Assembly: GCF_016790065.1 (NCBI RefSeq)
Contig: NZ_JAEUPY010000565.1
Coordinates: forward strand, 1 to 50,404
Direction of reading: 5' to 3'
Length of the DNA stretch: 50,404 bases
Source of the DNA: Steroidobacter sp.
GTDB taxonomy: Bacteria; Pseudomonadota; Gammaproteobacteria; Steroidobacterales; Steroidobacteraceae
Shown here piece after piece: positions 28,743 through 44,050 of this stretch (position 1 is the first letter of the stretch; the number at the start of each line of letters is the position of its first letter). Under the pieces are notes generated by a model, which saw only the letters and a program-made list of their open reading frames with translations, ran no database searches and was not told the origin of the DNA. Both the position numbers and the translations under genes were made by a program.

Positions 28743-29555
28743 TCAACGGACCTGAAACGCCATGCCGGCCATGCCACTCGCCCAGGCCGGAATGGCTTCA
28801 TAGAACAAACATTCGCCGGTCGCACCGGGAATCGTGCCCGCCAGAGTAATCCAGGCGTTCACTTCGAGGCCACCATTACCGGCATCGAGCAGGATCTGAT
28901 CGTTGCTGAGCTGCGCGAGTTCCGCGCCCTGCCCGGTGCCGAGCTTGTCGATGAACCAGCGATCCCACGCTTCATTGACGCGGCCTTCTTCCGGCACGCC
29001 CAGCCAATGCGAAAGGCCACCGCCCGCGAGCAACGCCACTCGTTCATCGGCCTTGCAGTGTTCAGCGATGTACTCACGCAGCAGCTCCCCCAGCCGCCAA
29101 CTCTCTTGCGGCGTCGGCGCCGGCGTGTACACCGTATTCACGTACAACAGCACGATGGGCAGCTCGCGCTTGGGATCGACGATGCCAAGCGGAATCATCA
29201 CGCCATGATCCGGCCGCAAGCGTGCCGGCTTGGACAGCTTGAAACCACGATCGCTAGCAAACATCGCGAAGCCGGTCGAGAACGCAGCGTCACCGCGAAT
29301 CTGCTCTGTCGGCAACCCCATATCGCCATACGGCGTATAAGCATCCGCGGTGCCAATGGCGAACGGCATGGGCTGATCGAGTTTGAAGTTGTTCAAATGA
29401 TCGCTGGTGACCATCACCAACAACGTCGGCTGAGCTTCACGCAAGCGACGTCCCAGCTCTTTCATGCCGACGAACACACGCTCGGCCTGCTCTTCCAACC
29501 CGACAGGAGAGCCCAGCACGTGTGACATGGCGAATGCGCCAACGATCTCGCCCAC
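28743..29555 (-). CDS. Class III extradiol dioxygenase, catalytic (LigB-type, CarBb-like) subunit
   Basis: 270 residues from a GTG at 29555. This start, two bases after the small-subunit stop, gives GEIVGAFAMSH. The predicted iron ligands are then His12, His53 (VTSDHLNNF) and Glu231 (GGLEVNAW), with acid-base His183 in GGGLSHWLG. His12 is in the same position as in protocatechuate 4,5-dioxygenase LigB. The frame is open to 29627, but the extra residues overlap the small-subunit gene. The neighbours (CarAa-like oxygenase, CarC-like hydrolase) point to the CarBb role, ring cleavage of 2'-aminobiphenyl-2,3-diol or a similar catechol, rather than protocatechuate. The real substrate is unproven. 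Confidence 0.88.
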   Translation of the reverse strand: MGEIVGAFAMSHVLGSPVGLEEQAERVFVGMKELGRRLREAQPTLLVMVTSDHLNNFKLDQPMPFAIGTADAYTPYGDMGLPTEQIRGDAAFSTGFAMFASDRGFKLSKPARLRPDHGVMIPLGIVDPKRELPIVLLYVNTVYTPAPTPQESWRLGELLREYIAEHCKADERVALLAGGGLSHWLGVPEEGRVNEAWDRWFIDKLGTGQGAELAQLSNDQILLDAGNGGLEVNAWITLAGTIPGATGECLFYEAIPAWASGMAGMAFQVR

Positions 29556-29557
29556 GC

Positions 29558-29824
29558 TCAGCGCCTCGCGAAGTAATAGTCGATGGCAAAGAACGGCATG
29601 GTCGGCCGGCCCGACCAGATCAGCCACTTGATCACCAGATTGGGATGAATGCCGAGCCGATGCAAATCGTCACGACTGCCGGTTCGCAAGGTCTGGCGCA
29701 CATCCGCGGGGATGCCGAAACGATCGAACAACGATTCCGGATCGGTGCGAATCAAACCGCGATCCGCTGGTGTCTCGATCAAGTGCTCGATCAGTTCGTG
29801 CACACCCTGCGGCGCGGCTGCCAC
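29558..29824 (-). CDS. Class III extradiol dioxygenase, small (LigA-type, CarBa-like) subunit
   Basis: An 88-residue protein of the LigA superfamily, recognised by the helix-rich plan and the stretch LRTGSRDDLHRLGIHPNLVI followed by KWLIW. Length and position match CarBa of carbazole degraders (about 90 residues), which forms the heteromeric ring-cleavage enzyme with CarBb. It starts one base after the stop of the hydrolase gene and ends two bases before the GTG of the large subunit, so the three are translated from one message. It has no catalytic residues of its own. Confidence 0.82.
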   Translation of the reverse strand: MAAAPQGVHELIEHLIETPADRGLIRTDPESLFDRFGIPADVRQTLRTGSRDDLHRLGIHPNLVIKWLIWSGRPTMPFFAIDYYFARR

Positions 29825-29825
29825 G

Positions 29826-30662
29826 TCAGTTCACCGGCTGGGTCAGAAACCGTTCGACGGCAGCACAGAAGTCGGCGGTGTGCTCGATCATGGCCCAGTG
29901 ACCGCAATGGGGCACGATGTAGCCCCAGCTGTTTTCGAACAACTCCAGAAAACGGTGCGCACGCGCCAACGTGGACACGCCGTCTTCCTTGCCGTTCACG
30001 ATCAACACCGGTTGTTTGATTTGTTGCAAAACATCTTCGGCGTAGTTCAGCGTGCCTTTGCGGGTCTCGGTGTTGACTGCTGCCAACGCAGCTTTCGCGC
30101 CCGGCTCCAGAGTCAGGTTGTAGCGATACTGAACCAGCTCTTCGGGCGGCGAATACTTCGGCGAGGTCAACCCCGCAATCACTCGGCGCATGCCGTCGAC
30201 GGTGAAATCGTAATTCAAGTTGTGCAGTAACTGCGGTGACGGCCTTTCCGGAATCGGTAGACCCGCACTGCCCATCAACACCAGCCGCTCGACACGCTCT
30301 GGACGCTGCAACGTCGCGCCAATACATGTGGCGCCACCCATGGAATTGCCGACCAAGAATGCCCTGTCGATGTTGAGCACATCGAGCAACGTCACTAACT
30401 GACGATTCCGTCCCGGCTGATCGTATGTGTAGACCTCAGGCGCAGGCTTATCGCTACGCCCGAACCCGACCATGTCTGGCGCGATGACCCGAAATTTCTT
30501 GGCGAAGATCGGAATGCACTCTCGCCAGTTGCCGTAAGCATCGGCACCCGCGCCACCGCCGTGCATGAGCACCAACGTCGGACCACTACCGGCTTCCAGG
30601 TAGTGGGTGCGAATGCCGTTGGTGTCGACGAAGTGCGAGGCGAATTCGGTCGTGCTGCTCAT
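29826..30662 (-). CDS. carC: CarC-like meta-cleavage product hydrolase (alpha/beta fold)
   Basis: 278 residues from the ATG at 30662, 11 bases after the Rieske gene stop; the open frame to 30761 overlaps that gene and is not used. The alpha/beta-hydrolase triad is Ser107 in LVGNSMGGAT, Asp227 in NGKEDGVS and His255 in PHCGHWAMIEH. The oxyanion region is LMHGGGAGADAYGNW. From memory of CarC of Pseudomonas resinovorans CA10, long stretches correspond closely (NYDFT..GM, SWGYI.PHCGHWAMIEH), more so than for BphD or MhpC. The expected reaction is hydrolytic C-C cleavage of a 2-hydroxy-6-oxo-6-aryl-hexa-2,4-dienoate to 2-hydroxypenta-2,4-dienoate plus an aromatic acid (anthranilate for carbazole). 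Confidence 0.88.
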   Translation of the reverse strand: MSSTTEFASHFVDTNGIRTHYLEAGSGPTLVLMHGGGAGADAYGNWRECIPIFAKKFRVIAPDMVGFGRSDKPAPEVYTYDQPGRNRQLVTLLDVLNIDRAFLVGNSMGGATCIGATLQRPERVERLVLMGSAGLPIPERPSPQLLHNLNYDFTVDGMRRVIAGLTSPKYSPPEELVQYRYNLTLEPGAKAALAAVNTETRKGTLNYAEDVLQQIKQPVLIVNGKEDGVSTLARAHRFLELFENSWGYIVPHCGHWAMIEHTADFCAAVERFLTQPVN

Positions 30663-30673
30663 GGCTTGGATAA

Positions 30674-31846
30674 TCAGCGCAGGTCTTGAGGAGTCTGAAT
30701 ACCGCGATTGGCCCGGCTCGCCAACCGTCGCCATTCCAGAATGGTCGAATCGGGCTCGCACAACATTTCATCCACCCAACCGAAGTCGTCGGCATAGAAC
30801 GGCTCGGTCACCTCGCGCGCCCAAATGTCGTCGGCGTTGAACCCGTCCAAGCCGTGCGGCTTGTAGATGGATTCGAAATCGTTGGCGAACTGAATCCTAT
30901 CCTCGTCGGTTTGCACCTGAGTGCCGATGGTCTGCACATACAGATGCGTCTTGCCATCCAGCGGCACATACCACTCGAACTGCGTCAGACCCGGCAGCGG
31001 AAACGATTCGACTTTCAACACACCCGGCAGCCAGATCGAAGTCCCAACCGACGCCGACGTGCCTTGCACTTGTTCCGAGCGTGGACCACGCACGACCACG
31101 CGACCGTCGATCACGCCATCCCAAACGGGCTTGTGCTGAGCGAAGTCGTCGATCACACCTTTGGGACCAGCCGCATCTTCCACCACTTGCACGGCACCCG
31201 GCAGCGGCGTGTGGCCGATGGGGAAGTTGAACGTGCGGTAATGACGCAGCGTCGTGTCCTTGTGAATGAAGATGTGCAAGGCGTCGAAGCCGTTCTCGGC
31301 ACCGAGACGCCAATTCGAGTTCACCACGCGATGCTTGCCTAGAATCATCACGTCGTCATCGAGGAAGCCCGGCGGCACGTCCTGACTCAGCGGCGGCACC
31401 GGATCCAGATCGCCGATGAACACAAAGATCAGCCCTTTGGCTTCCTGCACCGGGAAACTCATGATCTTGCGACGACCGATCAAGCGGCTGTCGGGCACGG
31501 CCAGAATGTTCACCAGTTCGCCGGTTTGGAAACGATAGGTGTAGCCGTGATACCAGCAGGTGATGGTGTCCTTGGTGTAACAATCCGGCTTGCGTGACAA
31601 CGGCACGCCACGATGCAAACAACGATCGCGGATCGCGTACACCTTGCCGTCGATGCGCTTCAGCAGCAGCTTTTCGCCGAGCGCCGTCACGGTGATCAGC
31701 TGGCCTTCGACCAGCTCATTGGAGAAGCGCACCGGATACCAGTGATTGCGAAAGCCCAGCTTGGCTTCCACATAGGCGCGCCAATCGCCCACTGCCGCGG
31801 CGACTTCGGGACGGACGCCTTCCGGGGTTTGCGCGTCATCACTCAT
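30674..31846 (-). CDS. carAa: CarAa-like Rieske non-haem iron terminal oxygenase (angular dioxygenase type)
   Basis: A 390-residue oxygenase. The Rieske cluster ligands are Cys76, His78 (DRCLHRG), Cys97 and His100 (ITCWYHGYTY). The mononuclear iron site has His191 and His195 in GFDALHIFIHKDT, the bridging Asp188, and an Asp at 339 or 340 in GFNADDIWARE. Segments GFRNHWYPV, SIWLPGVLKV, TQFEWYVPLD and the end RGIQTPQ correspond closely, from memory, to carbazole 1,9a-dioxygenase CarAa (384 residues), a homotrimer with no beta subunit; no beta-subunit gene is present here either. It should dihydroxylate a bicyclic or tricyclic aromatic using electrons from the ferredoxin and reductase encoded divergently. 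Carbazole, dibenzofuran or another diaryl compound are possible substrates. Confidence 0.9.
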   Translation of the reverse strand: MSDDAQTPEGVRPEVAAAVGDWRAYVEAKLGFRNHWYPVRFSNELVEGQLITVTALGEKLLLKRIDGKVYAIRDRCLHRGVPLSRKPDCYTKDTITCWYHGYTYRFQTGELVNILAVPDSRLIGRRKIMSFPVQEAKGLIFVFIGDLDPVPPLSQDVPPGFLDDDVMILGKHRVVNSNWRLGAENGFDALHIFIHKDTTLRHYRTFNFPIGHTPLPGAVQVVEDAAGPKGVIDDFAQHKPVWDGVIDGRVVVRGPRSEQVQGTSASVGTSIWLPGVLKVESFPLPGLTQFEWYVPLDGKTHLYVQTIGTQVQTDEDRIQFANDFESIYKPHGLDGFNADDIWAREVTEPFYADDFGWVDEMLCEPDSTILEWRRLASRANRGIQTPQDLR

Positions 31847-31888
31847 GATCTACTGCATCCTCGAAACAAAAACTCGATTTGTTGATCG

Positions 31889-32665
31889 TCAAGCGAAGTG
31901 CGCACTCACCGTGCCGATGCCGGCGATGGTCGCGTGGACGACGTCGCCTTCTTTCACCGATGTCATCGGGCCGAGCGCGCCAGTCATCACCAGCTCGCCT
32001 TCTTTGAGCGGCCGACCCAATTCGCGCGAACGTCTCGCCAGCCACACCGCTGCATTAAGCGGGCCGCCGAGACAATCACGACCGTAACCGCTCGACACCG
32101 ACTTGCCGTTGAGTGTCATAGTCATCGCGCAATTCACTAGGTCCAGTCCTTCGAGGCGCTGCGCAGGCCCGCCGAGCACCAGCACGCCCGACGAAGCGTT
32201 GTCGGCGATGGTGTCGACGATGTCGATGTTCCAACCGGCGATACGACTGCCGACGACTTCGAGCGCTGGCAACACACAACCAACCGAGGCGATGACATCT
32301 GCCACTGTTGCGTGCGCCATATCCAAGTCACGCGACAAGATCAGTGCAATCTCGGCTTCGACACGTGGCTGCTGAAGTCGCGACACCGGGATGGTCTCGC
32401 CCGTGCCGTACACCATGTCCGCAAATAGTTGGCCGAAATCCGGCTCGGCCACGCCGAGCTGCTTCTGCACCGCCGGCGAGGTCAGCCCAATCTTGCGACC
32501 CACGGGCCGGCGGCCGCTCTCGATCCAATGCGAAATCTGAGCCTGCTGAACGGCATAGGCCGTCCGGGTGTCGCCCGCGTCGAAACGAGTGCGGATTGGA
32601 GGCAGCGGCGCGCCGCCATACGCATCCAACAAAGCTCGCGCGGTTTCGCCGACTCTCGAATCCAT
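31889..32665 (-). CDS. 2-oxopent-4-enoate (2-hydroxypenta-2,4-dienoate) hydratase
   Basis: A 258-residue enzyme of the MhpD/XylJ/CarD family (fumarylacetoacetase-like fold). Metal-binding acidic residues lie in RVEAEIALILSRDL. Other conserved stretches are GRKIGLTSPAVQKQLGV, DNASSGVLVLGG, GRDCLGGPLNAAVWLAR and ELVMTGALGPMTSVKEGD. It converts the dienol product of the C-C hydrolase to 4-hydroxy-2-oxovalerate, the substrate of the aldolase at 40.8-41.8 kb. It is the first gene of the minus-strand operon hydratase-carAa-carC-small subunit-large subunit. A candidate operator lies 35 bases upstream of its start. Confidence 0.93.
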   Translation of the reverse strand: MDSRVGETARALLDAYGGAPLPPIRTRFDAGDTRTAYAVQQAQISHWIESGRRPVGRKIGLTSPAVQKQLGVAEPDFGQLFADMVYGTGETIPVSRLQQPRVEAEIALILSRDLDMAHATVADVIASVGCVLPALEVVGSRIAGWNIDIVDTIADNASSGVLVLGGPAQRLEGLDLVNCAMTMTLNGKSVSSGYGRDCLGGPLNAAVWLARRSRELGRPLKEGELVMTGALGPMTSVKEGDVVHATIAGIGTVSAHFA

Positions 32666-32699
32666 TGCCCACCCCTCTCGCTGGAGCCACGTTATATGA

Positions 32700-32718
32700 T
32701 TGTATGATAATCATGCAA
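32700..32718. promoter_or_regulatory. Candidate GntR operator, site A (hydratase / reductase divergent promoter)
   Basis: TTGTATGAT (32700-32708), one base, and ATCATGCAA (32710-32718) form a 19-base dyad with one mismatch. It sits in the 84-base gap between the divergent hydratase and reductase genes. It shares TTGTATGAY with four other intergenic sites in this island. Binding by the GntR protein encoded at 38.2-38.9 kb is inferred. Confidence 0.65.
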
Positions 32719-32749
32719 TATGGCGTTGAACGGATAGGCGGTTACCTTA

Positions 32750-33748
32750 ATGCAGCGGGCGCGGTTGATTTTTCAGGACGGGGCCGAGCTGACCGTTGCG
32801 GTTGCGCCCGGCCAGACGCTGCTGGAAGGCGCGCTCGCCGCCGATGCACCGGTGCGTTATGACTGCTGTTCCGGCAGTTGCGGCAGCTGTGTCGTCCAAT
32901 GCCTGGCCGGGGAATCCGTGGTCGATGTGACCGGGAAAATGCCCGTGAATGCTGACGAGCTGGCCGAGGGGTTGCGGCCCGCGTGCCTTACGCGGATCAA
33001 GACCGACGCCACCTTCGAGCTGCCCTACTCGCTGCATGACGCGCCATCTTTGCCGTCGAAACATTCGGCGCAGATCGTCGAGTTGCGTCGGGGCGCGCCG
33101 TCGGTTGCCTTACTCAAGTTGCAGCTGGATCGCGCCGAGGATTTTGTTTTTCAGCCTGGTCAGTATGTCCGCCTCGCCGCGCCTGGCGTCGGTGAAGCGC
33201 GGGCCTACTCGATTGCCAGCACCGCCACCGATCTGCCGCTGCTCGAGCTCATGATTCGGCTGGTGCCGAATGGAACGATGTCGCGCTGGCTGCAGGAGAC
33301 TGCGAAGGTCGGCGATCGCGTGAAATTGCAGGCGCCGCTGGGATCTTTCGGGCTCGACGATCGCGCGACTCGTCATGTGTTTGTCGCTGGCGGGACGGGA
33401 CTCGCGCCGGTGTTGTCGATGGTCCGCTCACTGCGCGGTCGCGGTCAGCCGGCACTGCTATGTTTCGGCTGCACGCGTCGACAGGAATTGTTTTACGAAC
33501 AAGAGCTGGCCGCGCTCGCCGCGTCCATGCCCGAACTCGAAGTGCGCATCGCCGTCATGGAAGGCGCAGACATCGATTTACACAGTGGCACCGCGGTCTC
33601 GTTACTTCGACGCGAAGACTTCGATGCCGCCACCGTTTGCTACCTCTGCGGCCCGCCACTCATGGTCGACGCCGCCCGCAAAGCCTTGAGCGCACACGGC
33701 GTCGCCACCAAGGCCATCCGCGCCGAACGCTTTCAGCCTGGCGGCTGA
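32750..33748 (+). CDS. Ferredoxin reductase with plant-type 2Fe-2S, FAD and NAD domains (CarAd role)
   Basis: A 332-residue electron-transfer protein. The N-terminal plant-type ferredoxin domain has Cys39, Cys44, Cys47 (CCSGSCGSC) and Cys79. The FAD-binding domain follows with ARAYSIAST (the RxYS motif), then a NAD-binding domain with VFVAGGTGLAPVLSMVRSL and CYLCGPPLMVDAARKAL. The fused plan is that of CarAd, BenC and phenol hydroxylase reductases. It passes electrons from NADH to the Rieske ferredoxin encoded next, and so to the CarAa-like oxygenase. It is transcribed divergently from the oxygenase operon; candidate operator A lies between. Confidence 0.92.
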   Translation: MQRARLIFQDGAELTVAVAPGQTLLEGALAADAPVRYDCCSGSCGSCVVQCLAGESVVDVTGKMPVNADELAEGLRPACLTRIKTDATFELPYSLHDAPSLPSKHSAQIVELRRGAPSVALLKLQLDRAEDFVFQPGQYVRLAAPGVGEARAYSIASTATDLPLLELMIRLVPNGTMSRWLQETAKVGDRVKLQAPLGSFGLDDRATRHVFVAGGTGLAPVLSMVRSLRGRGQPALLCFGCTRRQELFYEQELAALAASMPELEVRIAVMEGADIDLHSGTAVSLLRREDFDAATVCYLCGPPLMVDAARKALSAHGVATKAIRAERFQPGG

Positions 33749-33809
33749 CCTCGCGCTCGCCGCTCAATCAGTTCGCGCCTCGGGCAATTCCCGGTTGACC
33801 GCGCGAACT

Positions 33810-33820
33810 TTGTATGACAA
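33810..33820. promoter_or_regulatory. Candidate GntR operator, site B (upstream of Rieske ferredoxin)
   Basis: TTGTATGACAA matches the general GntR-family half-dyad form TNGTNNNACNA exactly and is identical to the core of site C. It lies in the 125-base gap between the reductase and ferredoxin genes, 53 bases before the ferredoxin ATG. TTGACC at 33795-33800 just upstream may be a -35 element, but the matching -10 is poor. Confidence 0.55.
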
Positions 33821-33873
33821 TACTACAGAAACTGGATTCTGGACCCCGTGCAGTGAGCTGCGAACGAGCCGCC

Positions 33874-34191
33874 ATGACCTTTGCCGATCGACGCCTGTTG
33901 TGTGCGGCGGATGACGTTGCGCCCGGCGCCATGCTGCGCGTTCAGCCCGAGGGACTGGACCCGATCCTGGTGTGCAATGTCGACGGCAAGCTCTATGCGG
34001 TCGATGACGAATGCACGCACGCCATCGCGTCGCTGTCCGAAGGGCGACTGCAAGGAAACATCGTGTTCTGTCCCATGCACGGCGGCAGCTTCGATGTTTG
34101 CTCCGGCAAGGCCAAGAGCCTGCCGTGTAAGCAGTCGCTGCGCACCTGGCCGATCGAAGTGAGTGACGGCAAGGTTTATTTGGTCAGATGA
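33874..34191 (+). CDS. carAc: Rieske-type 2Fe-2S ferredoxin (CarAc-like)
   Basis: A 105-residue soluble ferredoxin. Rieske ligands are Cys47 and His49 in DECTHAIASLSEG, and Cys66 and His69 in FCPMHGGSFDVCSG. From memory this segment is close to CarAc of Pseudomonas resinovorans (TCTHGIASLSEG, CPFHGGAFNVCTG). It carries electrons from the reductase to the terminal oxygenase. The ATG at 33874 gives the expected length; the frame is open to an ATG at 33814, but that codon lies inside candidate operator B. The stop is 15 bases from the end of the convergent gamma-glutamyltransferase gene. Confidence 0.9.
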   Translation: MTFADRRLLCAADDVAPGAMLRVQPEGLDPILVCNVDGKLYAVDDECTHAIASLSEGRLQGNIVFCPMHGGSFDVCSGKAKSLPCKQSLRTWPIEVSDGKVYLVR

Positions 34192-34206: not shown

Positions 34207-35997
34207 TTAGCGGCCGACTGCGTACGCCTGCATCAGCCTTGGCGTAGCCGCCGCTCGCAATATTCCATCCGTTCCGCGCGACGCTGCTGTGAGTCTTCCG
34301 GCCGACCAAGCCGGCGCGACCTTCACGTCATGACCTCGGCGTCTCAGCTCAGCGATCACCTTCTCTCCGTAGCTCTCTTCGATCACAGCCGCGCCTAACA
34401 TCGCCTCGCGCGGATAGAACGACGCCGGAAAGTGCACGCTATGAAACAGCGGCGCATCGATGGCCTGCTGCAAATCCAAGCCATGATGAAGATGTCTGAG
34501 CAGGAAAATCAGTTGCCACTGATCCTGTTGATCGCCACCCGGCGTACCACAAATCATCGACGTACCATCGTCACGCGTCGCCAGCGTCGGCGTAAGCGTC
34601 GTACGCGGCCGTTTACCGGGCGCGAGGCTGCCCGGCAGCCCAGGCTCCAACCAGAACATCTGCGCTCTGGTATTGAGCGCGAATCCCAGCTCAGGAATGG
34701 TCGGTGACGATTGCGGCCAACCCCCTGAAGGCGTCGCCGACACCAGGTTGCCGAAACGATCGATCACATCGAAGTGCACTGTGTCGCCGGGCTTCAAGGT
34801 CGGCTTCAAATGCATCATGGTCGGCTCACCAACCCCGAGCCCGCCGCTCTCGCCGGTGGCAATGCGCACCATGCTCAAGCTCTTCGCGACCTGCGCCTCG
34901 AAGCCAGGCAACACCCCGGGCCGCAGTTCGTGCGAGGCACTATCGCCGATTAACTTGCGACGCTCAGCCGCATAGCTCTCGCTCAGCAATGCCTCGACGG
35001 GAACCGGCATGAAGTTCGGATCGCCGTAATAAGCTTCGCGATCCGCGAACGCTAGCTTCAGCGCCTCAAGCACGATGTGAACAAACTCGGGCTCGGACGC
35101 CGGCAACGTCGAGAAGTCATAACCAGCGAGCAGCGACAACGCTTGCAGCAGCACCGGCCCTTGGCCCCAAGGCCCGGTCTTACAGAACATCCAATCGCGA
35201 TAACGAAACGTCTGCGGCGCTTCGTAACTGGCCTGCCACTTCGCCATGTCATCGCCGGTCAGCAGACCTTTGTGGCGCTGACCGCTCGCATCCATCAATT
35301 CTTGCGTACGACAGAAGCGATCGATGGCTTCAGCAACAAACCCACTCGACCAAGCCGCACGGGCGCGCTCGATCTGTTGTTCGCGACTGCCCTCGCCCGT
35401 CGCGCTGAGAATTTTTCGCCAGGTCGCAGCTAGGGCCGGATTACGGAATAACTGATTCGGCGCCGGCACTTCATTGTTGGGCAACCAAACCGGCGCCGAC
35501 ATCGGCCACTCTTTTCGAAACGCCTCCGCGACATCGCCAATCGCTCGCGACGCTCCAGGCAACAGCGGATGGCCAGCCTCCGCGTAATGAATCGCAGGCT
35601 CCAATACATCCGCCAGCCGCATGCTGCCGTGATCGCGCAGGAGCGTCATCCACGCATCGAACGATCCCGGCACGGTGGCCGCAAGCAACCCCGAGCCCGG
35701 CACCATGTCGAGGTTCATCGAACGCATCCGCTCAATGGTTGCAGCCGCCGGCGTGACACCTTGACCACAAAGCACGGTGGGCGCGTTATCGCGCGCTGAT
35801 TTGAAAACGATCGGCACTTCGCCAGCTGGCCCGCACAAATGCGGCTCGACGACTTGTAGCGTGAAGCCGATGGCGACCGCAGCGTCAAACGCGTTACCGC
35901 CACGCTCGAGCATGGCCATGCCGACGCCCGACGCGATCCAGTGCGTCGATGCAACGACGCCGAAAGTGCCGCGAATCTCCGGCCGCGTAGTGAACAT
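34207..35997 (-). CDS. Gamma-glutamyltransferase family protein, apparently cytosolic
   Basis: A 596-residue N-terminal-nucleophile hydrolase of the gamma-glutamyltranspeptidase family. The start VVASTHWIASGVGMAMLERGGNAFDAAV is typical. The predicted autocleavage and nucleophile residue is Thr406 in GDTVHFDVID, which separates large and small subunits, and the later glycine-rich segment ICGTPGGDQQDQWQ matches family patterns. No signal peptide is present, unlike periplasmic Ggt, so it may act in the cytosol on a pathway intermediate. Relatives cleave gamma-glutamyl amides or acyl amides (GGT, cephalosporin acylase-like). Its start overlaps the cupin stop (TGATG), placing it last in the monooxygenase-cupin-GGT operon. 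Confidence 0.86.
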   Translation of the reverse strand: MFTTRPEIRGTFGVVASTHWIASGVGMAMLERGGNAFDAAVAIGFTLQVVEPHLCGPAGEVPIVFKSARDNAPTVLCGQGVTPAAATIERMRSMNLDMVPGSGLLAATVPGSFDAWMTLLRDHGSMRLADVLEPAIHYAEAGHPLLPGASRAIGDVAEAFRKEWPMSAPVWLPNNEVPAPNQLFRNPALAATWRKILSATGEGSREQQIERARAAWSSGFVAEAIDRFCRTQELMDASGQRHKGLLTGDDMAKWQASYEAPQTFRYRDWMFCKTGPWGQGPVLLQALSLLAGYDFSTLPASEPEFVHIVLEALKLAFADREAYYGDPNFMPVPVEALLSESYAAERRKLIGDSASHELRPGVLPGFEAQVAKSLSMVRIATGESGGLGVGEPTMMHLKPTLKPGDTVHFDVIDRFGNLVSATPSGGWPQSSPTIPELGFALNTRAQMFWLEPGLPGSLAPGKRPRTTLTPTLATRDDGTSMICGTPGGDQQDQWQLIFLLRHLHHGLDLQQAIDAPLFHSVHFPASFYPREAMLGAAVIEESYGEKVIAELRRRGHDVKVAPAWSAGRLTAASRGTDGILRAAATPRLMQAYAVGR

Positions 35998-36527
35998 CAG
36001 GTGCGCGTCAGATGCGCGTCACGATTCTCGAACAACTTCTGATCGACGAAACCCGCCGTCTCAGGCCGGCCACGACCCAACATGACCTGTAAATACACCG
36101 GCTCGTTGGTTTCATTCACATAGCCATGAATCACGCCCGGCGGACAGGAAATCATTTCCCACTGCTGCAGCTCTTTGCTCAACCGCCGGCCCTCTTCATC
36201 TTCGATGAACACCACGCACCGGCCTTGCAGGACAAAGAATATTTCCTCGACCTCATGCGTATGCGGCGCGTTGCCCTGCCCCGGCGGCACCAACATGATG
36301 GACAGCGTGAAATTACCCGCCGGCACGATCTTGGCGTCATCGTGCTTACCCGACGCACCCGCGCCGACGAAGCGATGTTGCGCGCGACGATAGCCGTCGA
36401 TATTCGCATCGGAAAACGCGTTCCAATCCGGCGTCCGGTCGGCGAAGCGTGCGACGTAACGATCCATGATTTGCTCGAGCGAAACCCCGACCAACTCAGG
36501 CGGGCGAGGATGGCGGGCAATGGACAT
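35997..36527 (-). CDS. Cupin-domain protein
   Basis: A 176-residue protein with one cupin core. The metal-type motif 1 is PPGQGNAPHTHEVEEIFFVLQG (His, His, Glu ligands) and motif 2 is PPGVIHGYVN with the fourth ligand His. The N-terminal 60 residues (VGVSLEQIMDRYVARFADR) are extra. A metal-dependent dioxygenase, isomerase or decarboxylase role is possible, or a sensor. It is encoded nine bases after the FAD monooxygenase and overlaps the GGT-like gene, so it is probably part of the same catabolic step sequence. The specific reaction is not recognisable. Confidence 0.82.
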   Translation of the reverse strand: MSIARHPRPPELVGVSLEQIMDRYVARFADRTPDWNAFSDANIDGYRRAQHRFVGAGASGKHDDAKIVPAGNFTLSIMLVPPGQGNAPHTHEVEEIFFVLQGRCVVFIEDEEGRRLSKELQQWEMISCPPGVIHGYVNETNEPVYLQVMLGRGRPETAGFVDQKLFENRDAHLTRT

Positions 36528-36536
36528 GGGCTTTCC

Positions 36537-37769
36537 TCAAAGAGTGGCGTTGGCGTCGCGCAAGCTGTCGATCAAACAGGCGCGACGAATGAAAGCATCG
36601 TGCAACTCGGGATCGGCGGACTGACGGCGAATCCCATCCAGCTTACGTGCACGCTCCACCGGATCCTTCTCGCCCAGCGTCTGTTTGTTCTGAATGCTCT
36701 GCGCCTGCACGTAATCCACCTGCGCCTTGCGCCGCTGCCGCGTGTACTGATCGAATAATGGCTGTGCCTCGGCACCTTCGAACCAGATGGCTTGTAACTT
36801 GTCGGCGAGATTGATTGCGTCATGAATGCCGCCGTTCATACCCATGCCGCCCACAGGATTGTTCACGTGCGCCGAATCGCCGGCCAACAACACGCGGCCG
36901 TGATTGAACGTAGCCGCGACACGCTGATGCACTTTGTAGAGCGCGATGGTCGCGATTTCATAGCGGCCAGGCTTGGGACAAAACTTCTGCAATCGCGCTT
37001 CCACAGCTTCGGGCGAGAGCAGTTCCTCATCGGTTTGCTCCGGCAACGTCGGACTCACCGCACGCCACATCCCTTCACCGCTCGCGCCGCGCGCCTTGAA
37101 CAGATTCAACCATTCCTCGGGATCGGAGAAATAATTGCGATTGCTGAGCTCGGGTCGCAATCCGAAGAAGTCGAAGCGTGTATCGATTTTTAGGAAGCGC
37201 TCCGGCCAGGTGAAGCCTTCGAACTCGATGTCCACCAGCTTACGAATGGTGCTTCGGCCACCATCGCAGCCGACCAGATAGCGACCGGAAATGATTTCGC
37301 TGCCGCCATCGGGCGTGGTCACGGTGACGTCAACTTTGTCCGCGTCCTGCTCGACAGCGACGACGCGCGTCGACATGCGAATGTCTGCATCAGAATCGCT
37401 GGCCAAGCGATTGATCACGGAGCCGACGATCTTGTACTGCTCCCACTGCAATACATACGGATGCGCCGGCCGCTCCCGCATGGCTTCGATGTCGAAGCGC
37501 CCGATCAATTCGCCGGTGACGCGATCCAGATAATTGAATACAGGAGAGACGAGTCCCTGATCGAGGCCGTCTTCGAGCAGACCCAGCTCCTCGATCATGG
37601 CCACCGTAGGCGGATGACACGAAGCCGCGCGACAGTCGATCTCAGGCGCAGCCAGCGCCTCGATCAGAACGACCGGAATATTTCGCCGCCGAAGTGCGTA
37701 CGCCAGGATGGCGCCAATCGGCCCCGCACCGGCAATGATGACCCGATCTATAGCCCGAGCTGTGCCCAT
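36537..37769 (-). CDS. FAD-dependent aromatic monooxygenase (PHBH/MhpA class)
   Basis: 410 residues from the ATG at 37769 (a TTG at 37790 is also in frame). The flavin site starts VIIAGAGPIGAILAYALRR (GxGxxG). The DG motif is GRYLVGCDGGRSTIRK, and the GD motif is RVLLAGDSAHVNNPVGGMGMNGGIHDA. This is the class A flavoprotein hydroxylase plan, single-component and NAD(P)H-dependent. It may hydroxylate the aromatic acid released by the C-C hydrolase (anthranilate- or salicylate-like), which would explain the lack of anthranilate dioxygenase genes nearby; that is inference. It is the first gene of its operon, with candidate operator C about 48 bases upstream. Confidence 0.88.
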   Translation of the reverse strand: MGTARAIDRVIIAGAGPIGAILAYALRRRNIPVVLIEALAAPEIDCRAASCHPPTVAMIEELGLLEDGLDQGLVSPVFNYLDRVTGELIGRFDIEAMRERPAHPYVLQWEQYKIVGSVINRLASDSDADIRMSTRVVAVEQDADKVDVTVTTPDGGSEIISGRYLVGCDGGRSTIRKLVDIEFEGFTWPERFLKIDTRFDFFGLRPELSNRNYFSDPEEWLNLFKARGASGEGMWRAVSPTLPEQTDEELLSPEAVEARLQKFCPKPGRYEIATIALYKVHQRVAATFNHGRVLLAGDSAHVNNPVGGMGMNGGIHDAINLADKLQAIWFEGAEAQPLFDQYTRQRRKAQVDYVQAQSIQNKQTLGEKDPVERARKLDGIRRQSADPELHDAFIRRACLIDSLRDANATL

Positions 37770-37816
37770 GAACCGAACTTCCGCTGGCAATGAGCGGAGT
37801 GTAGCTCGGGATTGCT

Positions 37817-38155: not shown

Positions 38156-38887
38156 TTACCCAGACCGCCGAACCCCAGCCGCACGAACAGGCACAGCCGT
38201 CGCCGCGGCCTGCTCTTCTTCCGCCTGCAACTTAGCGACGATAGCCCGACGCGCATTCGCTAGGTGATCGCCCATCGCCTTCGCAGCAGCATTCGCATTC
38301 CGCTCGACGATGGCTTCGATCAAGCGATCCCACTCATGGATGCCATCTTCCAACCGATGCGGCTCCGCCATCGATCGCATGCGCAGATAGTTCACTCGCG
38401 TCAGCAACTGCCGCGCCATGTCGGCAATCACCTTGCTGCCCGAGTTATTCAAAATGGTTTCGTAGAACTCGCCAGCCATGATGGCCAGCTCGCGCACGTC
38501 ACCCTTGTTGAGCACCTTGCGCAAATCCTTGTGAATGCGCACCAGCTTCTTGATCGCATTCTCGTCAGCCAGCGCGACGAAACGCTTCACCGCCAGCGTC
38601 TCGAGCATCTCTCGCATCAGATAAATATCTTCAGCATCTTTCGAAGAAACAATCGCCACCGTGATGTTGCGACGCTTGCCGACTTCGATCAGATTTTCCG
38701 CCTGCAGTTGTCGCAAGGCTTCGCGCACCGAGGTGCGGCTGACACCCAACGCCTCACACAGCTCACGTTCCACCAAGCGCATGCCAGGTGGATACAAGCC
38801 ACGGCTGATGGCGTTGCGGAGTTTGTCCAACGCGTGCTCACGCACCAGCGTGGGATTTTCAACGATGCGTAGATCCTGGTATTCCAA
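38156..38887 (-). CDS. GntR-family transcriptional regulator, FCD (FadR) subfamily
   Basis: A 243-residue regulator. The winged helix-turn-helix (about 15-80) contains GLYPPGMRLVERELCEALGVSRTSVREALRQL. The all-alpha FCD effector domain (about 85-220) has the acidic/His residues of a metal or carboxylate site in EFYETILNNSG and IHEWDRLIEAIVERNANAA. FCD regulators typically repress catabolic operons and release on binding an organic acid. It is encoded 31 bases after the aspartate-dehydrogenase-like gene on the same strand, so operator D may give autoregulation. The best candidate sites for it are the five TTGTATGAY sites in this island. Confidence 0.92.
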   Translation of the reverse strand: MEYQDLRIVENPTLVREHALDKLRNAISRGLYPPGMRLVERELCEALGVSRTSVREALRQLQAENLIEVGKRRNITVAIVSSKDAEDIYLMREMLETLAVKRFVALADENAIKKLVRIHKDLRKVLNKGDVRELAIMAGEFYETILNNSGSKVIADMARQLLTRVNYLRMRSMAEPHRLEDGIHEWDRLIEAIVERNANAAAKAMGDHLANARRAIVAKLQAEEEQAAATAVPVRAAGVRRSG

Positions 38888-38918: not shown

Positions 38919-39728
38919 TTACGCGAGCGTCGATCGCTGGCAGAGCCCGGAGATGGGGTAAGCGCCGCCGAGGCGGGCACATTGCACGATACTGTACGCC
39001 GTCAGCGCCGAGGTTTTCGGATTATCGGCGGCTGCACGCGCGAAAATATCGAACCGAAAATGTCCGAACGCGCCATGAGCCTCGATCCTGCCGAGCGGGT
39101 CGGTAACGTTGCGTGACGACACCAACCGCACCCGCGTGGCGTCCATTCCCAAGCCCACCAAGGCGATAGCCACACCCACGTTGACGTTCTTGGGATAAGC
39201 CAGCGCCGCGGCACGCGCCGAGCCGGCGAAAAACTCCCGCTCCGGCTCGGAATGATTCAGGTCGAGCACCTGCTCAGCCGCCGTGCCACGCCAGGCATGC
39301 GGTGGTTTGAACGAGGTGTAGGTCACTTCGTCCAAGCCCGCGAGCCGTGCGGCCAATAAACCATCGAGGCCGGCGATCGCGCCCGCCGGCAGCAGCGCTC
39401 TACCGCCGCCCTGTTCAGCATCGAGCAGTTCGTCTCTGAGCTCATCATCGGCGAGCGCGCCGACGGACGACACGATCACATCGATCCCCGCCCGCAGCAA
39501 CGGCACGACGAACTCCCGGACCGCCGAGTGGCCCGCACATTCCAAGACCACGCGCGGCCCCGCCGCGATCAAGGCCTGAACATCGTGAACCGCATGCGGC
39601 GCCTCGCGGCCCGGACGGACCAATACCGCCTGCATCGCGGCCGTCTCGCCCAGCTTCAATAATGCCGTCATGACCTCGCGCCCCATGGCGCCAAAGCCGA
39701 TCATGCCCAGCGGCAGATTACGTCGCAT
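38919..39728 (-). CDS. L-aspartate dehydrogenase-like NAD(P)-dependent oxidoreductase
   Basis: A 269-residue protein of the NadX/aspartate dehydrogenase family. The Rossmann start is LGMIGFGAMGREVMTALL, the middle has VVLECAGHSAVREFV and the C-terminal domain has AYPKNVNVGVAIALVGLG and the conserved His region GRIEAHGAFGHFRF. Family members oxidise L-aspartate to iminoaspartate for NAD synthesis, but no nadA/nadC is nearby and the gene stands in an aromatic-degradation island. A role in amine or imine handling in that pathway, or in cofactor supply, is possible. It is divergent from the acetaldehyde dehydrogenase across operator D, and gntR follows 31 bases downstream. Confidence 0.85.
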   Translation of the reverse strand: MRRNLPLGMIGFGAMGREVMTALLKLGETAAMQAVLVRPGREAPHAVHDVQALIAAGPRVVLECAGHSAVREFVVPLLRAGIDVIVSSVGALADDELRDELLDAEQGGGRALLPAGAIAGLDGLLAARLAGLDEVTYTSFKPPHAWRGTAAEQVLDLNHSEPEREFFAGSARAAALAYPKNVNVGVAIALVGLGMDATRVRLVSSRNVTDPLGRIEAHGAFGHFRFDIFARAAADNPKTSALTAYSIVQCARLGGAYPISGLCQRSTLA

Positions 39729-39821: not shown

Positions 39822-40772
39822 ATGGCCCCGTCAGAGCGCGTCCCGGTAGCGATCATCGGCTCCGGCAACATCGGCACCGATCTGATGATCAAGATCCTGC
39901 GCACCAGCCGCACTTTGCGGATGGCGGCCATGGTCGGCGTGGATCCGCAATCCGAAGGCCTGGCTCGAGCGCAGCGACTTGGGGTCGCGACCACGGCCGC
40001 GGGCATCGACGGCTTTCTAGCCATGCCCGAGTTCAAAGAAGTGCGCTTGGTATTCGATGCCACCTCAGCGGCAGCTCACAAACACCACGACTCGGTACTG
40101 CGCGCACACGGTAAGAAGTTGATCGATCTAACGCCTGCGGCCGTCGGTCCGTTCGTGATTCCACCGGTCAATGGCGAGCAGCATCTCGGCGCCGCCAATC
40201 TAAACATGGTGACTTGCGGCGGCCAGGCAACCATTCCCATCGTCGCAGCGATCGGCAAAGTCGCGCCGGTGTTGTACGCCGAAATCGTCGCCTCCATCGC
40301 CAGCAAATCCGCCGGCCCGGGCACGCGAGCAAACATTGACGAGTTCACTGAGACCACGGCACGAGCCATCGAACAGGTAGGCGGGGCGCGGCACGGTAAG
40401 GCCATTATCGTGCTGAACCCCGCTGAGCCTCCGCTGGTCATGCGCGACACGGTGTACTGTCTCACCGCCCTTGCGGATGAGAGCGCCATCGCAGCCGCGG
40501 TTCAGAAGATGGTGGCCGAGGTACAGAGCTACGTGCCCGGTTATCGTTTGAAACAAAACGTCCAATTCGAGCGCGTCGGCCCCGGCGTGCAATTGCCGTT
40601 CGAAGGCGTGGACGCCTCGTTCGTCGGACTCAAAGTCAGCGTATTCCTGGAAGTGGAAGGCGCCGCACACTACTTGCCTGCATACGCGGGAAATCTGGAT
40701 ATCATGACGTCGGCCGCGCTACGAACTGCCGAGCGCGTGGCACTCAATCTCCGCGAGGAGATCGCTGCATGA
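39822..40772 (+). CDS. mhpF: Acetaldehyde dehydrogenase (acylating, CoA-dependent)
   Basis: A 316-residue enzyme that converts acetaldehyde, NAD and CoA to acetyl-CoA, working in complex with the aldolase through a channel. The NAD site is [19 protein letters not shown]. The catalytic cysteine is in [16 protein letters not shown]. Further MhpF/DmpF hallmarks are [11 protein letters not shown]-like [21 protein letters not shown] and [18 protein letters not shown] near the end. Its stop overlaps the aldolase start (ATGA). Together with the hydratase at 32 kb these genes complete the lower meta-cleavage pathway to pyruvate and acetyl-CoA. Confidence 0.95.
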
Positions 40773-41800
40773 GCCCGACCAGTAAGCTCTACATTCAAGA
40801 TGTGACGTTACGCGATGGCATGCACGCCATCCGTCATCAATACAGCGTCGAACACGTCAAAGCGATTGCCAGAGCGCTGGATGAAGCACGCGTCGACGCC
40901 ATTGAAGTCGCGCATGGCGATGGCCTGGCTGGCTCCTCATTCAACTACGGTTTCGGCAAACACACCGACTGGGAATGGATCGAAGCCGTCGCCAGCGTCA
41001 TCAAACACGCCAAGCTCACGACGTTGCTGTTGCCCGGCATCGGCACCGTTCACGACTTGCGACACGCGTTCGATCTCGGGGTGCGCTCGGTGCGCATCGC
41101 CACACATTGCACTGAAGCCGACGTTTCTCAGCAGCACATCGAATACGCACGCAACCTGGGCATGGATGTGTCTGGCTTCTTGATGATGAGTCACATGAGC
41201 CCGCCTGAGCAGCTCGCCGCGCAAGCGAAGCTGATGGAAAGCTACGGCGCGCATTGTGTGTATGTGACTGACTCGGGTGGCGCGATGACGATGGATGACA
41301 CCGCCGCTCGCTTCCAAGCTTACGATCGCGTGCTCAAGCCCGAGACCGAACGAGGCATTCACGCGCATCACAATCTCAGCTTAGGCGTTGCGAATTCCAT
41401 TCTCGCCGTGAAGAACGGCGCGATCCGCGTGGACGCCAGCCTTGCCGGCATGGGCGCAGGCGCAGGTAATGCGCCGTTGGAAGTGTTCATTGCCGCCGCC
41501 GACGTCTACGGATGGCAGCATGGTTGCGACCTGTTCAAGCTGATGGACGCGGCGGAGGACTTGGTTCGCCCGTTACAAGATCGACCGGTGCGCGTCGATC
41601 GCGAGACGCTGACGCTCGGCTATGCCGGCGTTTATTCCTCGTTCTTACGCCACGCCGAGAAAGCGGCGGCGACTTATGGGCTCGATACCCGCACTATCCT
41701 GGTCGAGCTCGGCCGGCGCCGCATGGTCGGCGGCCAGGAAGACATGATCACCGACGTCGCGCTCGATCTAGTACGCGCACGCGACCAACTTGCTTCGTAA
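40769..41800 (+). CDS. mhpE: 4-hydroxy-2-oxovalerate aldolase
   Basis: A 343-residue class II aldolase of the HMG-CoA lyase-like TIM-barrel family, splitting 4-hydroxy-2-oxovalerate to pyruvate and acetaldehyde. The start [18 protein letters not shown] carries the metal/catalytic Asp and His. Further motifs are [23 protein letters not shown] and the metal-site [29 protein letters not shown] and the C-terminal DmpG-type communication domain complete the match. It overlaps the dehydrogenase gene by four bases, as is usual for this channelling pair. Confidence 0.95.
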
Positions 41801-41831: not shown

Positions 41832-42683
41832 ATGGCCGCCCATCCGAAGCCCGCCGTTCCGCCCAGCCAGAGCTACCAGACGCTTACCGCCGACCGGCTC
41901 ACGCCGACCATCGGTGCCATCATCTCGGGCATCGATCTGAGCAAGCCACTGAGCACTCAGCAGCTGGCCGACCTGAATCAGGCCATCGCCGATCATCAGG
42001 TGATTTTCTTCCGTAATCAGCAGCTCGATCCGCCGTCGTTAAAGCGCGTCGGTCAGTATTTTGGCGAGCTGCAGATCCACGCGTTGCAGGGCCTGCCGGA
42101 TCATCCCGAAGTGCGCAAGCTACAGGCGGACGCGAATTCCAAACACGTGGCTGGCGAGGAATGGCACACCGACATGTCGTGCGCCACGATTCCTCCGATG
42201 GGCAGCATTCTTTATTTGCACACCCTGCCGACGATGGGCGGCGACACGATATTCGCGAGCATGTACGCCGCGTATGACGCGCTCTCGGATCGGATGAAGG
42301 CTTATCTCGAAGGCCTGACCGCTACTCACGACGGCAAGCTCGCCTTCGGCCGCTTCAATCCGGACGGCAAGTACCCGGTCGCCGTGCATCCGGTGATTCG
42401 CACCCATCCGGCAACGGGCCGCAAAGTGCTGTACGTGAACAAAGGCTTCACCGCCCGCATCAACGAAGTGCCCGAGGCCGAGAGCGCAGCGCTGCTGCAG
42501 TTCCTGTTCCATCACTGCGAGAACGCCTACTTCCAGGTGCGCTTCCGTTGGGAGCCGCACTCGGTCGCGTTCTGGGACAACCGCTGCACTCAGCACCTGG
42601 CCATCTGGGACTACTACCCGCAGTTGCGCTCAGGCTTCCGCGTGCAGATCGCCGACAAGGGCGGGCCGAAAGAGTCGGCGTAG
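41832..42683 (+). CDS. TauD/TfdA-family 2-oxoglutarate-dependent dioxygenase
   Basis: A 283-residue non-haem iron(II) dioxygenase. The iron-binding facial triad is the HxD of EWHTDMSCATIPP and the distal His in RCTQHLAIWDYY. The 2-oxoglutarate-binding Arg follows in LRSGFRVQI. The start GAIISGIDLSKPLS is typical of TauD/TfdA/AtsK enzymes, which oxidise taurine, alkyl sulfates or aryloxyacetates next to a heteroatom. The substrate cannot be told from the sequence. It lies 31 bases after the aldolase and is followed by an intrinsic terminator, so it is the last gene of that operon. Confidence 0.9.
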   Translation: MAAHPKPAVPPSQSYQTLTADRLTPTIGAIISGIDLSKPLSTQQLADLNQAIADHQVIFFRNQQLDPPSLKRVGQYFGELQIHALQGLPDHPEVRKLQADANSKHVAGEEWHTDMSCATIPPMGSILYLHTLPTMGGDTIFASMYAAYDALSDRMKAYLEGLTATHDGKLAFGRFNPDGKYPVAVHPVIRTHPATGRKVLYVNKGFTARINEVPEAESAALLQFLFHHCENAYFQVRFRWEPHSVAFWDNRCTQHLAIWDYYPQLRSGFRVQIADKGGPKESA

Positions 42684-42745: not shown

Positions 42746-44029
42746 TCAGGTGACGGAGATGGGGCCGCCGCGAGCGCGCTCGCCGTACGGACGGAGCGCT
42801 AGTACCAACACGATGGCGAGCACGCACAGAGGCACGCCGAGGGCGAGAATGGATTTGTATGAGCCGGTGTAGTCGTACACGGCGCCGAATGCGAGCGGGC
42901 TGAGGCTCATCGCCACCATCACTGCCGAGAACATGGCACCGAAGATCTGCGCGAAGTTCTTCAAGCCGAAGTAGCGGCTGGTGAGATAGGCGAGCATGTC
43001 CACCTCGGCACCTAGGCTCAAGCCGAGCAGGATGGCCGCGACGGTGAACACCCAAATCGGCAGCGGCGCGGACAGCAGCCCCAAGCCGATCGCCGACAGC
43101 GAGAAGAACACGAACGCGATCCGACGCGCGTCGTATCGATCGACCAGGAAGCCGATCAACAGCCGGCCGCCGAATGCAGACCAACCGAACGCCGACGCCA
43201 ACCACGACGCCTGTGCGACCGGCACGCCGCGATCCTGAAGCATGGGCACCATGTGCGGGATCAATCCATACAACACGAACGCCAGGCCGGCGAAGATGGT
43301 GATCAGACTCCAGAAGTCACGCCGTCGCATGGCCTCGGCCAGCGAATCTCCTGTCGCCACCGGATGCGCAGCTGGCTCGTCGGATACCGCGCCGTCCGGA
43401 TGCAAGCCGAGCGACTGCGGCTTCTCGTGCAATAGAAACAAAATCATCGGCAGCGTAAACAGCAACATGATCAAGCCGAGCCCGAAGTAACCGCCGCGCC
43501 AACCGTAGTGCGCCACCAGCCATGACGTGATCAACGGCACATAGCCGAAGCCGAGACCAGTGCCACTGCCGGCAATGCCAATCGCCAAGCCGCGACGGCG
43601 ATCGAACCAAGCGGTGAGCACTCGCATGTAGGGCACGCTGTTGGTGCCGACGGCAATCGTCCCCATCGCCACGTACAGCGCGATGAACTGCCAGTAGTTC
43701 TGGATCATCGACGCCGCCAGAAAACACAGCCCGAAGATGATGACCGAGGGCACCAGCACCTGCTTCACGCCGAAGCGGTCGACGAGCTTGCCCATCAACG
43801 GCAGCGAGATGGCCGTACACAACATCATCACCGACACGGCGGCACTGATGGCCGTGCGACTCCAGCCGAACTCCTCGCCGATCGGACCGCCCAACAGAAA
43901 CAACGAGGACAGTCCGAAAGCCGCCGGCCCGGTGGAGATGCCGAGCAAGCACACCACGACGGTGAGCCAGCCGCGATAAAACACCGGTTCGGAGCGGGCC
44001 GCCTGCATTTGGGATAGGGATTCAGCCAT
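42746..44029 (-). CDS. Major facilitator superfamily transporter
   Basis: 427 residues from the ATG at 44029, with about 12 hydrophobic helices and a central hydrophilic loop (HPDGAVSDEPAAHPVATGDS). The cytoplasmic loop 2-3 signature is present as LPLMGKLVDRFGVKQVL, and a second-half counterpart is GRLLIGFLVDRYDARRI. The pattern (FYRGWLTVVVCLLG at the start) resembles the monocarboxylate/oxalate-formate antiporter branch. It is a likely inner-membrane uptake or export system for a pathway acid. The frame is open to 44074, but that start would lie inside the terminator that follows the TonB receptor gene, which supports the shorter form. Confidence 0.9.
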   Translation of the reverse strand: MAESLSQMQAARSEPVFYRGWLTVVVCLLGISTGPAAFGLSSLFLLGGPIGEEFGWSRTAISAAVSVMMLCTAISLPLMGKLVDRFGVKQVLVPSVIIFGLCFLAASMIQNYWQFIALYVAMGTIAVGTNSVPYMRVLTAWFDRRRGLAIGIAGSGTGLGFGYVPLITSWLVAHYGWRGGYFGLGLIMLLFTLPMILFLLHEKPQSLGLHPDGAVSDEPAAHPVATGDSLAEAMRRRDFWSLITIFAGLAFVLYGLIPHMVPMLQDRGVPVAQASWLASAFGWSAFGGRLLIGFLVDRYDARRIAFVFFSLSAIGLGLLSAPLPIWVFTVAAILLGLSLGAEVDMLAYLTSRYFGLKNFAQIFGAMFSAVMVAMSLSPLAFGAVYDYTGSYKSILALGVPLCVLAIVLVLALRPYGERARGGPISVT

Positions 44030-44050
44030 AGAGATCGCGCATCGAGGGAT

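Follow-up and report, generated by a model that had tools for sequence, protein, structure and literature searches.

Genes of the catabolic island

The subject of this study is a gene island at 28.7-48.2 kb of a 50,404-nucleotide contig from the soil bacterium Steroidobacter sp. (NZ_JAEUPY010000565.1; the whole stretch is called the window below), which holds a Rieske oxygenase of the carbazole 1,9a-dioxygenase (CarAa) family and a meta-cleavage branch. On the minus strand the transcription order is hydratase-Aa-C-Ba-Bb: a 2-hydroxypenta-2,4-dienoate hydratase of the MhpD type (31889..32665), the CarAa-family terminal oxygenase Aa (30674..31846), the alpha/beta-hydrolase C for the meta-cleavage product (29826..30662 from its ATG), the LigA-like small subunit Ba (29558..29824, 88 amino acids with a GTG start) and the LigB-fold catalytic subunit Bb of an extradiol dioxygenase (28743..29555 from its likely GTG start, with the longest frame reaching 29627). 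Divergent from these on the plus strand are an NADH reductase with 2Fe-2S, FAD and NAD domains of the BenC/MmoC type (32750..33748) and a Rieske ferredoxin (33814..34191), and the plus-strand genes for an acylating acetaldehyde dehydrogenase of the MhpF type (39822..40772) and a 4-hydroxy-2-oxovalerate aldolase (40769..41800) start 5.6 kb past the ferredoxin. A sequence-only reading of this DNA had described this arrangement, with the last two genes about 6 kb away, and the genes were placed as it claimed; the oxygenase, ferredoxin, reductase, LigA/LigB pair, hydrolase and hydratase are all open frames with strong family matches, except Ba, which has no Pfam match. The part that it covered, 28743-34191, is about 28% of the conserved unit described below, whose end is at about 48.2 kb.

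In a profile search Aa, which has a Rieske domain, matched PF11723 with 254.1 bits (cut-off 24.4) and Bb matched PF02900 with 119.5 bits, and the hydratase scored 343.9 bits against NF008461, slightly below the cut-off of 350. Identity to the car proteins of Pseudomonas resinovorans CA10 was 53% for Aa, 40% for Bb, 43% for C and 25% for Ba (from its translation), 47% for the ferredoxin (CarAc), 30% for the reductase (CarAd), 43% for the hydratase and 66% for the acetaldehyde dehydrogenase; the ferredoxin, a PF00355 protein, also had CarAc (1vck) as its top PDB match. Compared with Escherichia coli, the hydratase was 57% identical to MhpD, the acetaldehyde dehydrogenase 66% to MhpF and the aldolase 77% to MhpE. 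Bb was closer to CarBb than to MhpB (24%), and C was closer to CarC than to MhpC (31%), so that the hydrolase sides with CarC as the sequence-only reading had it. The best solved relative of C, which has Ser107/Asp227/His255, is the meta-cleavage-compound hydrolase 1j1i. The arginine of MhpC, considered as a sign that the product is carboxylated, was uninformative, because it aligned alike in MhpC, CarC and C.

All metal ligands of Aa are conserved, namely C76, H78, C97 and H100, which we take to be the Rieske ligands, H191, H195 and D340, presumably the 2-His-1-Asp iron site, and D188, presumably the bridging aspartate. Enzymes of the CarAa family are homotrimers, and the scan of window proteins, which covered 18.1 to 49.3 kb, turned up no beta subunit. 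The top PDB matches of Aa were carbazole 1,9a-dioxygenase (446 bits), and the next solved relative was 2-oxoquinoline 8-monooxygenase (323 bits). The latter match, taken with the Mhp-like lower pathway, would fit a monooxygenase that acts beside a ring nitrogen, followed by an 8-hydroxycoumarin-like route via an analogue of 2,3-dihydroxyphenylpropionate. We consider this very unlikely, as the CarAa match is the stronger of the two and neither a molybdenum hydroxylase nor a coumarin-ring gene was seen among the scanned window proteins.

Phylogeny and active-site pocket of the oxygenase

A maximum-likelihood tree with 84 rows and a midpoint root placed Aa of the window in a clade of 15 rows (support 100/100), which was joined (96/85) to a sister clade of 18 rows, mostly from Burkholderiales (100/100). 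The CarAa of CA10, of KA1 and of an Acinetobacter plasmid formed a separate clade of 30 rows (98/96), and no long-branch row was found inside the window clade or the sister clade. Aa is thus a relative of CarAa on its own branch, apart from the clade of the CA10 and KA1 enzymes, and in this respect the position differs from that expected by the sequence-only reading, within a tree whose rows do not include IC177 and KY5. A further distinct CarAa-like clade came from Nocardia, Mycolicibacter and Mycolicibacterium (L079-L082, L084, L085), where a reductase and a C-type hydrolase are encoded nearby; L082 and L085 also have genes for the hydratase, acetaldehyde dehydrogenase and aldolase.

The pocket differs as well. 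F204 and I262, which we take to be hydrophobic pocket residues of CarAa, are replaced by His and Thr in 15 of 15 rows of the window clade. All 18 rows of the sister clade have His204, with Ala (16 rows) or His (two rows) at position 262, and His204 occurs in none of the remaining 51 rows. The change S182L is common to both clades, and the pocket of Aa is more polar than that of CarAa. Position 204 belongs to the stretch 202-214 of CarAa, which moves on carbazole binding according to a passage of a published report (PMC3423008).

These results bear on the simplest alternative, a plain carbazole or dibenzofuran pathway with the Caulobacteridae-type I layout of Erythrobacter sp. KY5. The D-Aa-C-Ba-Bb order identical to that of KY5 (PMC6256505), the identity of Aa to CA10 CarAa and the closeness of C to CarC speak for it. 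Nevertheless, the known CarAa of CA10, KA1 and the Acinetobacter plasmid stand in another clade (KY5 is not in the tree), both pocket residues are replaced, and TonB, gamma-glutamyltransferase (GGT)-fold and TauD genes also belong to the island. In addition, KY5 has an anthranilate-CoA ligase, whereas neither a CoA ligase nor an anthranilate dioxygenase was seen among the scanned window proteins and recurrent families, the whole genome not having been searched for them. We therefore regard this alternative as distinctly improbable. As for the hosts, no report of carbazole use was met, with Steroidobacter alone searched by name. The tree, the pocket and the extra genes speak for a substrate different from carbazole, as the sequence-only reading had suggested, and its description of a car-type cluster is supported in that a CarAa-family, angular-type oxygenase is accompanied by a CarB/CarC-type meta-cleavage branch.

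Conservation of the gene set across lineages

To collect relatives, six patterns of eight residues were run against a single genome of each species and the best 80 of 106 hits were kept; among these, 14 relatives matched Aa at 77-95% identity. The flanks were compared for the window and 13 of the 14, excluding one on a contig of 3.8 kb (L017). They represent ten lineages, Steroidobacteraceae, Brevundimonas, Caulobacter, Phenylobacterium, Niveispirillum, Sphingomonas, Novosphingobium, Croceicoccus, Pacificimonas and Pusillimonas, and span Alpha-, Beta- and Gammaproteobacteria, with the complete set of about 18 genes in few of them. The following counts are lower bounds, because a simple frame caller was used. 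Bb, Aa and a GntR/FCD regulator (38156..38887, minus strand) were found in 10 of 10 lineages; the flavin hydroxylase (FADmox), the cupin, C, the TauD protein, the aldolase and Ba in nine; and the TonB-dependent receptor (44104..46335, minus), the GGT-fold protein, the aspartate dehydrogenase (AspDH)-like enzyme, the reductase and the MFS transporter (42746..44074, minus) in eight. Seven lineages have the hydratase, the acetaldehyde dehydrogenase, a second GntR gene and a protein of the tannase/feruloyl-esterase family (PF07519; 46533..48230, plus), six an asparaginase-family gene and five the ferredoxin, and an SBF-type transporter, an amidohydrolase, a luciferase-like monooxygenase and a further hydrolase were each found in four. 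By direct search, a cupin orthologue was present in 14 of 14 relative genomes (65-94%); the match in Sphingomonas turrisvirgatae (G006:C68:151430-151954) has one in-frame stop, which reflects either decay or a sequencing error.

Because gene order and strand differ between the lineages, these data suggest that the set is held together by function. The neighbouring genes in the Peristeroidobacter and Steroidobacter loci are the same as those in the window, in agreement with the Steroidobacter-like background noticed from the sequence.

Close orthologues of Aa are rare. In the Steroidobacteraceae they were found in two of 100 genomes including that of the window, with one more match at 41% and otherwise distant Rieske proteins. 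A family sample around Croceicoccus gave Aa at 79-83% in three of 397 genomes and five more matches at 43-56%, and in a phylum sample the only genome of 398 with Aa at E 1e-100 was that of the window itself.

The aspartate-dehydrogenase-like gene

The AspDH-like NAD enzyme (38919..39728, minus strand) matched NF009828 with 243.6 bits, above the cut-off of 177, and the remaining AspDH models were below cut-off; its best fold matches, 1h2h, 1j5p and 2dc1, have the AspDH fold. Such a gene was present in all 16 window-clade genomes and all 18 sister genomes examined. Direct search found it in 14 of 14 window-clade relatives, with 56-89% identity for the near-full matches; the match in an uncultured Caulobacteraceae was partial. 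In Pusillimonas caeni the match (G012:C11:583627-584409) contains one in-frame stop, through decay or sequencing error.

When the fetched loci were queried with either the window protein or that of Pandoraea, the gene was found in 10 of 14 window-clade and 13 of 18 sister loci and in none of 48 other CarAa-like loci, 22 of which are shorter than 20 kb and cut by contig ends. The proteins of the 13 sister loci were 49-100% identical to the Pandoraea protein, and a genome search detected a relative of 48-69% in the five other sister genomes, in four of which it lies 0.9-4 kb beyond the fetched stretch if the contig numbers correspond. In eight of 18 sister loci the gene shares its strand with Bb and is less than 600 bp away from it. 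The pattern, already formulated by then, was checked in a genome found later through Aa (G170, 83%), and an AspDH-like gene of 67% identity was located 5.5 kb from Aa. In the Steroidobacteraceae any AspDH match occurred in six of 100 genomes and a match of at least 86% in two only, the next being 48%; these two genomes are the same two that have a close Aa orthologue.

The two clades differ at one residue of the enzyme. The histidine of the NxH motif, taken here to be the catalytic one of aspartate dehydrogenase, is kept in 13 of 13 sister proteins, in the solved aspartate dehydrogenases and in the proteins of NK8, HR1a and Acinetobacter baumannii, and it is replaced by glycine (Gly213) in 11 of 11 aligned window-clade proteins. 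Because of this replacement, the substrate of the window enzyme may not be aspartate, possibly being a related amino-dicarboxylate.

The sister clusters, among them those in Pandoraea, Paraburkholderia and Caballeronia (L024, L028, L039, L040, L043, L049, L051, L071), include an amino-acid permease in three of 17 called loci and DAO-type oxidoreductases in two of 17. One of them (L043) also contains a LigXa-type Rieske oxygenase, a second LigB-fold protein and an HcaD-type reductase.

Accessory proteins

The sequence-only reading was right that extra genes are present, and it missed the linked dehydrogenase, the GGT-fold hydrolase, the TauD protein, the flavin hydroxylase, the cupin, the transporter and the receptor. 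In the window the AspDH-like gene, the GntR regulator, FADmox (36537..37790), the cupin (35997..36527) and the GGT-fold Ntn hydrolase (34207..35997) form one row on the minus strand.

In the GGT-fold protein (PF01019) the equivalents of T391, G483 and G484 are kept in 12 of 12 sequences; we take these to be the catalytic threonine and the oxyanion Gly-Gly of gamma-glutamyltransferase. R114, N411, Q430, D433, S462 and S463, presumably the residues that bind the gamma-glutamyl group, are replaced by Q, G, R, M, T and T, respectively, in 12 of 12. No signal peptide was seen when the sequence was inspected by eye. The protein is probably an amidohydrolase of another kind, and glutathione or a gamma-glutamyl conjugate was rejected as substrate, since all tested gamma-glutamyl residues are missing and no signal peptide was visible.

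The TauD/TfdA-family 2-oxoglutarate oxygenase (41832..42683, plus strand) keeps the equivalents of H99, D101 and H255, which we take to be the iron ligands, and of R266, presumably the arginine for 2-oxoglutarate, in 9 of 9 sequences; R270 is also kept. The positions of Y73 and N95, assumed to bind taurine in taurine dioxygenase, hold a gap and a histidine in 9 of 9, and the score against the NCBIfam taurine model (275.7 bits) is below the cut-off of 313. A TauE/SafE-family gene (27920-28687) adjoins Bb in Steroidobacteraceae. The idea of a taurine or sulfonate substrate, based on TauD and this adjacent TauE, was weakened by the loss of the two taurine residues and by the fact that TauE was seen beside the island only in Steroidobacteraceae. 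In Pseudochrobactrum (L116) a TauE/SafE-family gene is next to a GGT-fold gene of 63% identity, with hydantoinase-like hydrolases and a peptide-type transporter nearby. At the other end of the island, a frame of 149 amino acids without Pfam or NCBIfam match (48253-48702) lies just 3' of the tannase-family gene.

FADmox (PF01494) has PnpA and HspB as closest solved relatives, both of which exchange a substituent of the ring for a hydroxyl group. The single-domain cupin (PF07883) has both metal motifs complete by eye, and its predicted structure (mean pLDDT, the predicted local distance difference test, 56) was too poor for a fold search. Searches of plasmids with FADmox, cupin, AspDH and GGT returned neighbourhoods of relatives, none of them in a named pathway. 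Cupin and AspDH relatives occur together in aromatic clusters of Caballeronia NK8 pNK84 (L111), Novosphingobium HR1a (L112) and an A. baumannii plasmid (L113), which also hold a Rieske alpha subunit, an SDR, a VOC protein, an alpha/beta hydrolase, a thiamine pyrophosphate enzyme and an aldehyde dehydrogenase, and whose records name no substrate.

The same-strand row from AspDH to GGT is the starting point of another explanation, by which the substrate would be a naturally occurring analogue of carbazole, for instance a beta-carboline; the acid released by C would resemble an aminopyridine or anthranilate, and the row would degrade this second ring by hydroxylation, cupin ring cleavage, amide hydrolysis and deamination. 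The relationship of FADmox to HspB, which acts on a pyridine, is in line with it, as are the histidine lost from the AspDH-like enzyme, the carbazole enzymes as closest solved oxygenases to Aa, and a faint match of the cupin to 3-hydroxyanthranilate dioxygenase models (20 bits). However, this cupin match is far below the cut-off, the Aa pocket is more polar than that of CarAa, and the AspDH of the sister clade has no FADmox, cupin or GGT gene to accompany it within 10 kb of Aa, so that we consider the explanation rather unlikely.

Proposed pathway and substrate

We propose that the island is a conserved chromosomal catabolic unit for a nitrogen-bearing natural aromatic compound with an otherwise unsubstituted benzo ring, a reading for which we find the evidence evenly balanced. 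What was established directly is which genes are present, which residues are conserved, that the set is co-inherited, and the clade and pocket of Aa; every reaction below is drawn from homology, above all the substrate and the AspDH step. The compound would be taken up by the TonB receptor and the MFS carrier, and TauD, FADmox, the cupin, the GGT-fold amidohydrolase and the asparaginase-family enzyme may trim it or finish a side product. The reductase, the Rieske ferredoxin and Aa would then dioxygenate the heteroatom-bearing ring carbon and its neighbour by angular attack, and the ring would re-aromatise to a 2,3-dihydroxyphenyl compound without a dihydrodiol dehydrogenase; none was seen among the recurrent families scanned. 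BaBb would cleave the catechol adjacent to the side chain, and C would hydrolyse the product to 2-hydroxypenta-2,4-dienoate and an acid R-COOH. The unsubstituted dienoate is taken as the intermediate because the lower pathway is closest to the Mhp type, which uses it, and the hydratase, the aldolase and the acylating dehydrogenase would convert it to pyruvate and acetyl-CoA.

In C-C hydrolases of the MhpC/BphD/CarC type the ring carbon that bears the side chain becomes a carboxyl group, and in the Mhp route the propionate side chain thus leaves as succinate. In parallel, a CH2-CH(NH2)-COOH side chain would yield aspartate, and R-COOH may accordingly be an amino-dicarboxylate, aspartate or a close relative, that is oxidatively deaminated by the AspDH-like enzyme. 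The amino-acid permease and the DAO-type oxidoreductases of a few sister clusters are in line with this. A route from phenylalanine to aspartate is known for Phenylobacterium, although passages of two papers on that genus do not show it. A more specific version would make the oxygenases of both AspDH-linked clades enzymes for aromatic compounds of the amino-acid type, such as indoline-2-carboxylate or an ortho- or meta-substituted phenylalanine, with a catechol of the 2,3-dihydroxyphenylalanine type from which C releases aspartate rather than succinate, and the carbazole oxygenases a pollutant-adapted side branch of an older family. This version is tentative, and we think it less probable than its opposite by a clear distance.

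Several results weigh against a single conserved pathway with an amino-dicarboxylate product. In Sphingomonas turrisvirgatae the set is split over two contigs, leaving the nearness to Aa unsupported there, and it is incomplete in several lineages, the Pusillimonas stretch that was read missing FADmox, GGT, TonB, the reductase and the hydratase. GGT, cupin and FADmox were each found in 0 of 18 sister loci within 10 kb of Aa, and therefore the pathways of the window and sister clades differ. The absence of AspDH from the 48 other CarAa-like loci is weakened by the truncation of 22 of them. Genome-wide, moreover, an AspDH match occurred in 11 of 44 genomes of the other clades, including a relative of the sister protein at 51-54% in six, although none of the 11 was seen within the fetched stretch around Aa. 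Fisher values for the AspDH link are only a guide and overstate its strength, since the rows are related and not independent. The loss of the NxH histidine from the window-clade enzymes is a further difficulty, and no single named substrate accounts for FADmox, cupin, TauD and GGT jointly.

It is the breakdown of pollutants for which CarAa-type oxygenases are known, and a set of about 18 genes that remains largely together in three classes, in hosts for which we met no report of carbazole use, points to a natural substrate for the family. The island thus offers a testable answer on the origin of the car genes, and the AspDH-like, GGT-fold and cupin families, whose usual names probably mislead, would gain functions.

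Comparison with known systems

No description of a pathway with these parts was found in open-licence PMC texts. To judge from that literature, the clade and its pocket, the link to AspDH and the broad set of genes inherited together have not been described, whereas the oxygenase family, the meta-cleavage branch and the gene order are of known kinds. The layout had been read as newly reorganised, but similar orders are already published, carDAaCBaBbFE followed by the reductase in Erythrobacter sp. KY5 (PMC6256505) and, in a passage describing strain IC177, carAaCBaBbAcAd (PMC10992316). The Caulobacteridae-type I cluster of KY5 shares the order carD-Aa-C-Ba-Bb with the island, a likeness of published order and not of sequence; in KY5 FE and the reductase come directly after Bb, with the anthranilate-CoA ligase upstream (PMC6256505), whereas FE of the island is 5.6 kb past the ferredoxin.

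Compared with the car cluster of P. resinovorans CA10 (pCAR1), the island has homologues of Aa, Ba, Bb, C, Ac, Ad, D, F and E (E by annotation only). It differs in order, in the clade and pocket of Aa and in the low identity of the reductase, and it has extra AspDH, GGT-fold, TauD, FADmox, cupin, MFS, TonB and tannase-family genes.

The lum cluster for lumichrome (vitamin B2) offers a parallel in chemistry: the parts of two reports that describe it show a Rieske dioxygenase opening a benzo-fused N-heterocycle to a catechol, followed by extradiol cleavage and with a cupin involved, although the Rieske enzyme there is of the alpha-beta type and the other genes and the product differ from those of the island (PMC12746152; PMC12752717).

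With the E. coli mhp pathway for 3-(3-hydroxyphenyl)propionate, the island has in common a LigB-type dioxygenase, a C-C hydrolase and the MhpD/F/E lower pathway, but it is entered by a Rieske oxygenase and has a LigA-like subunit, a hydrolase closer to CarC and an aspartate-type dehydrogenase.

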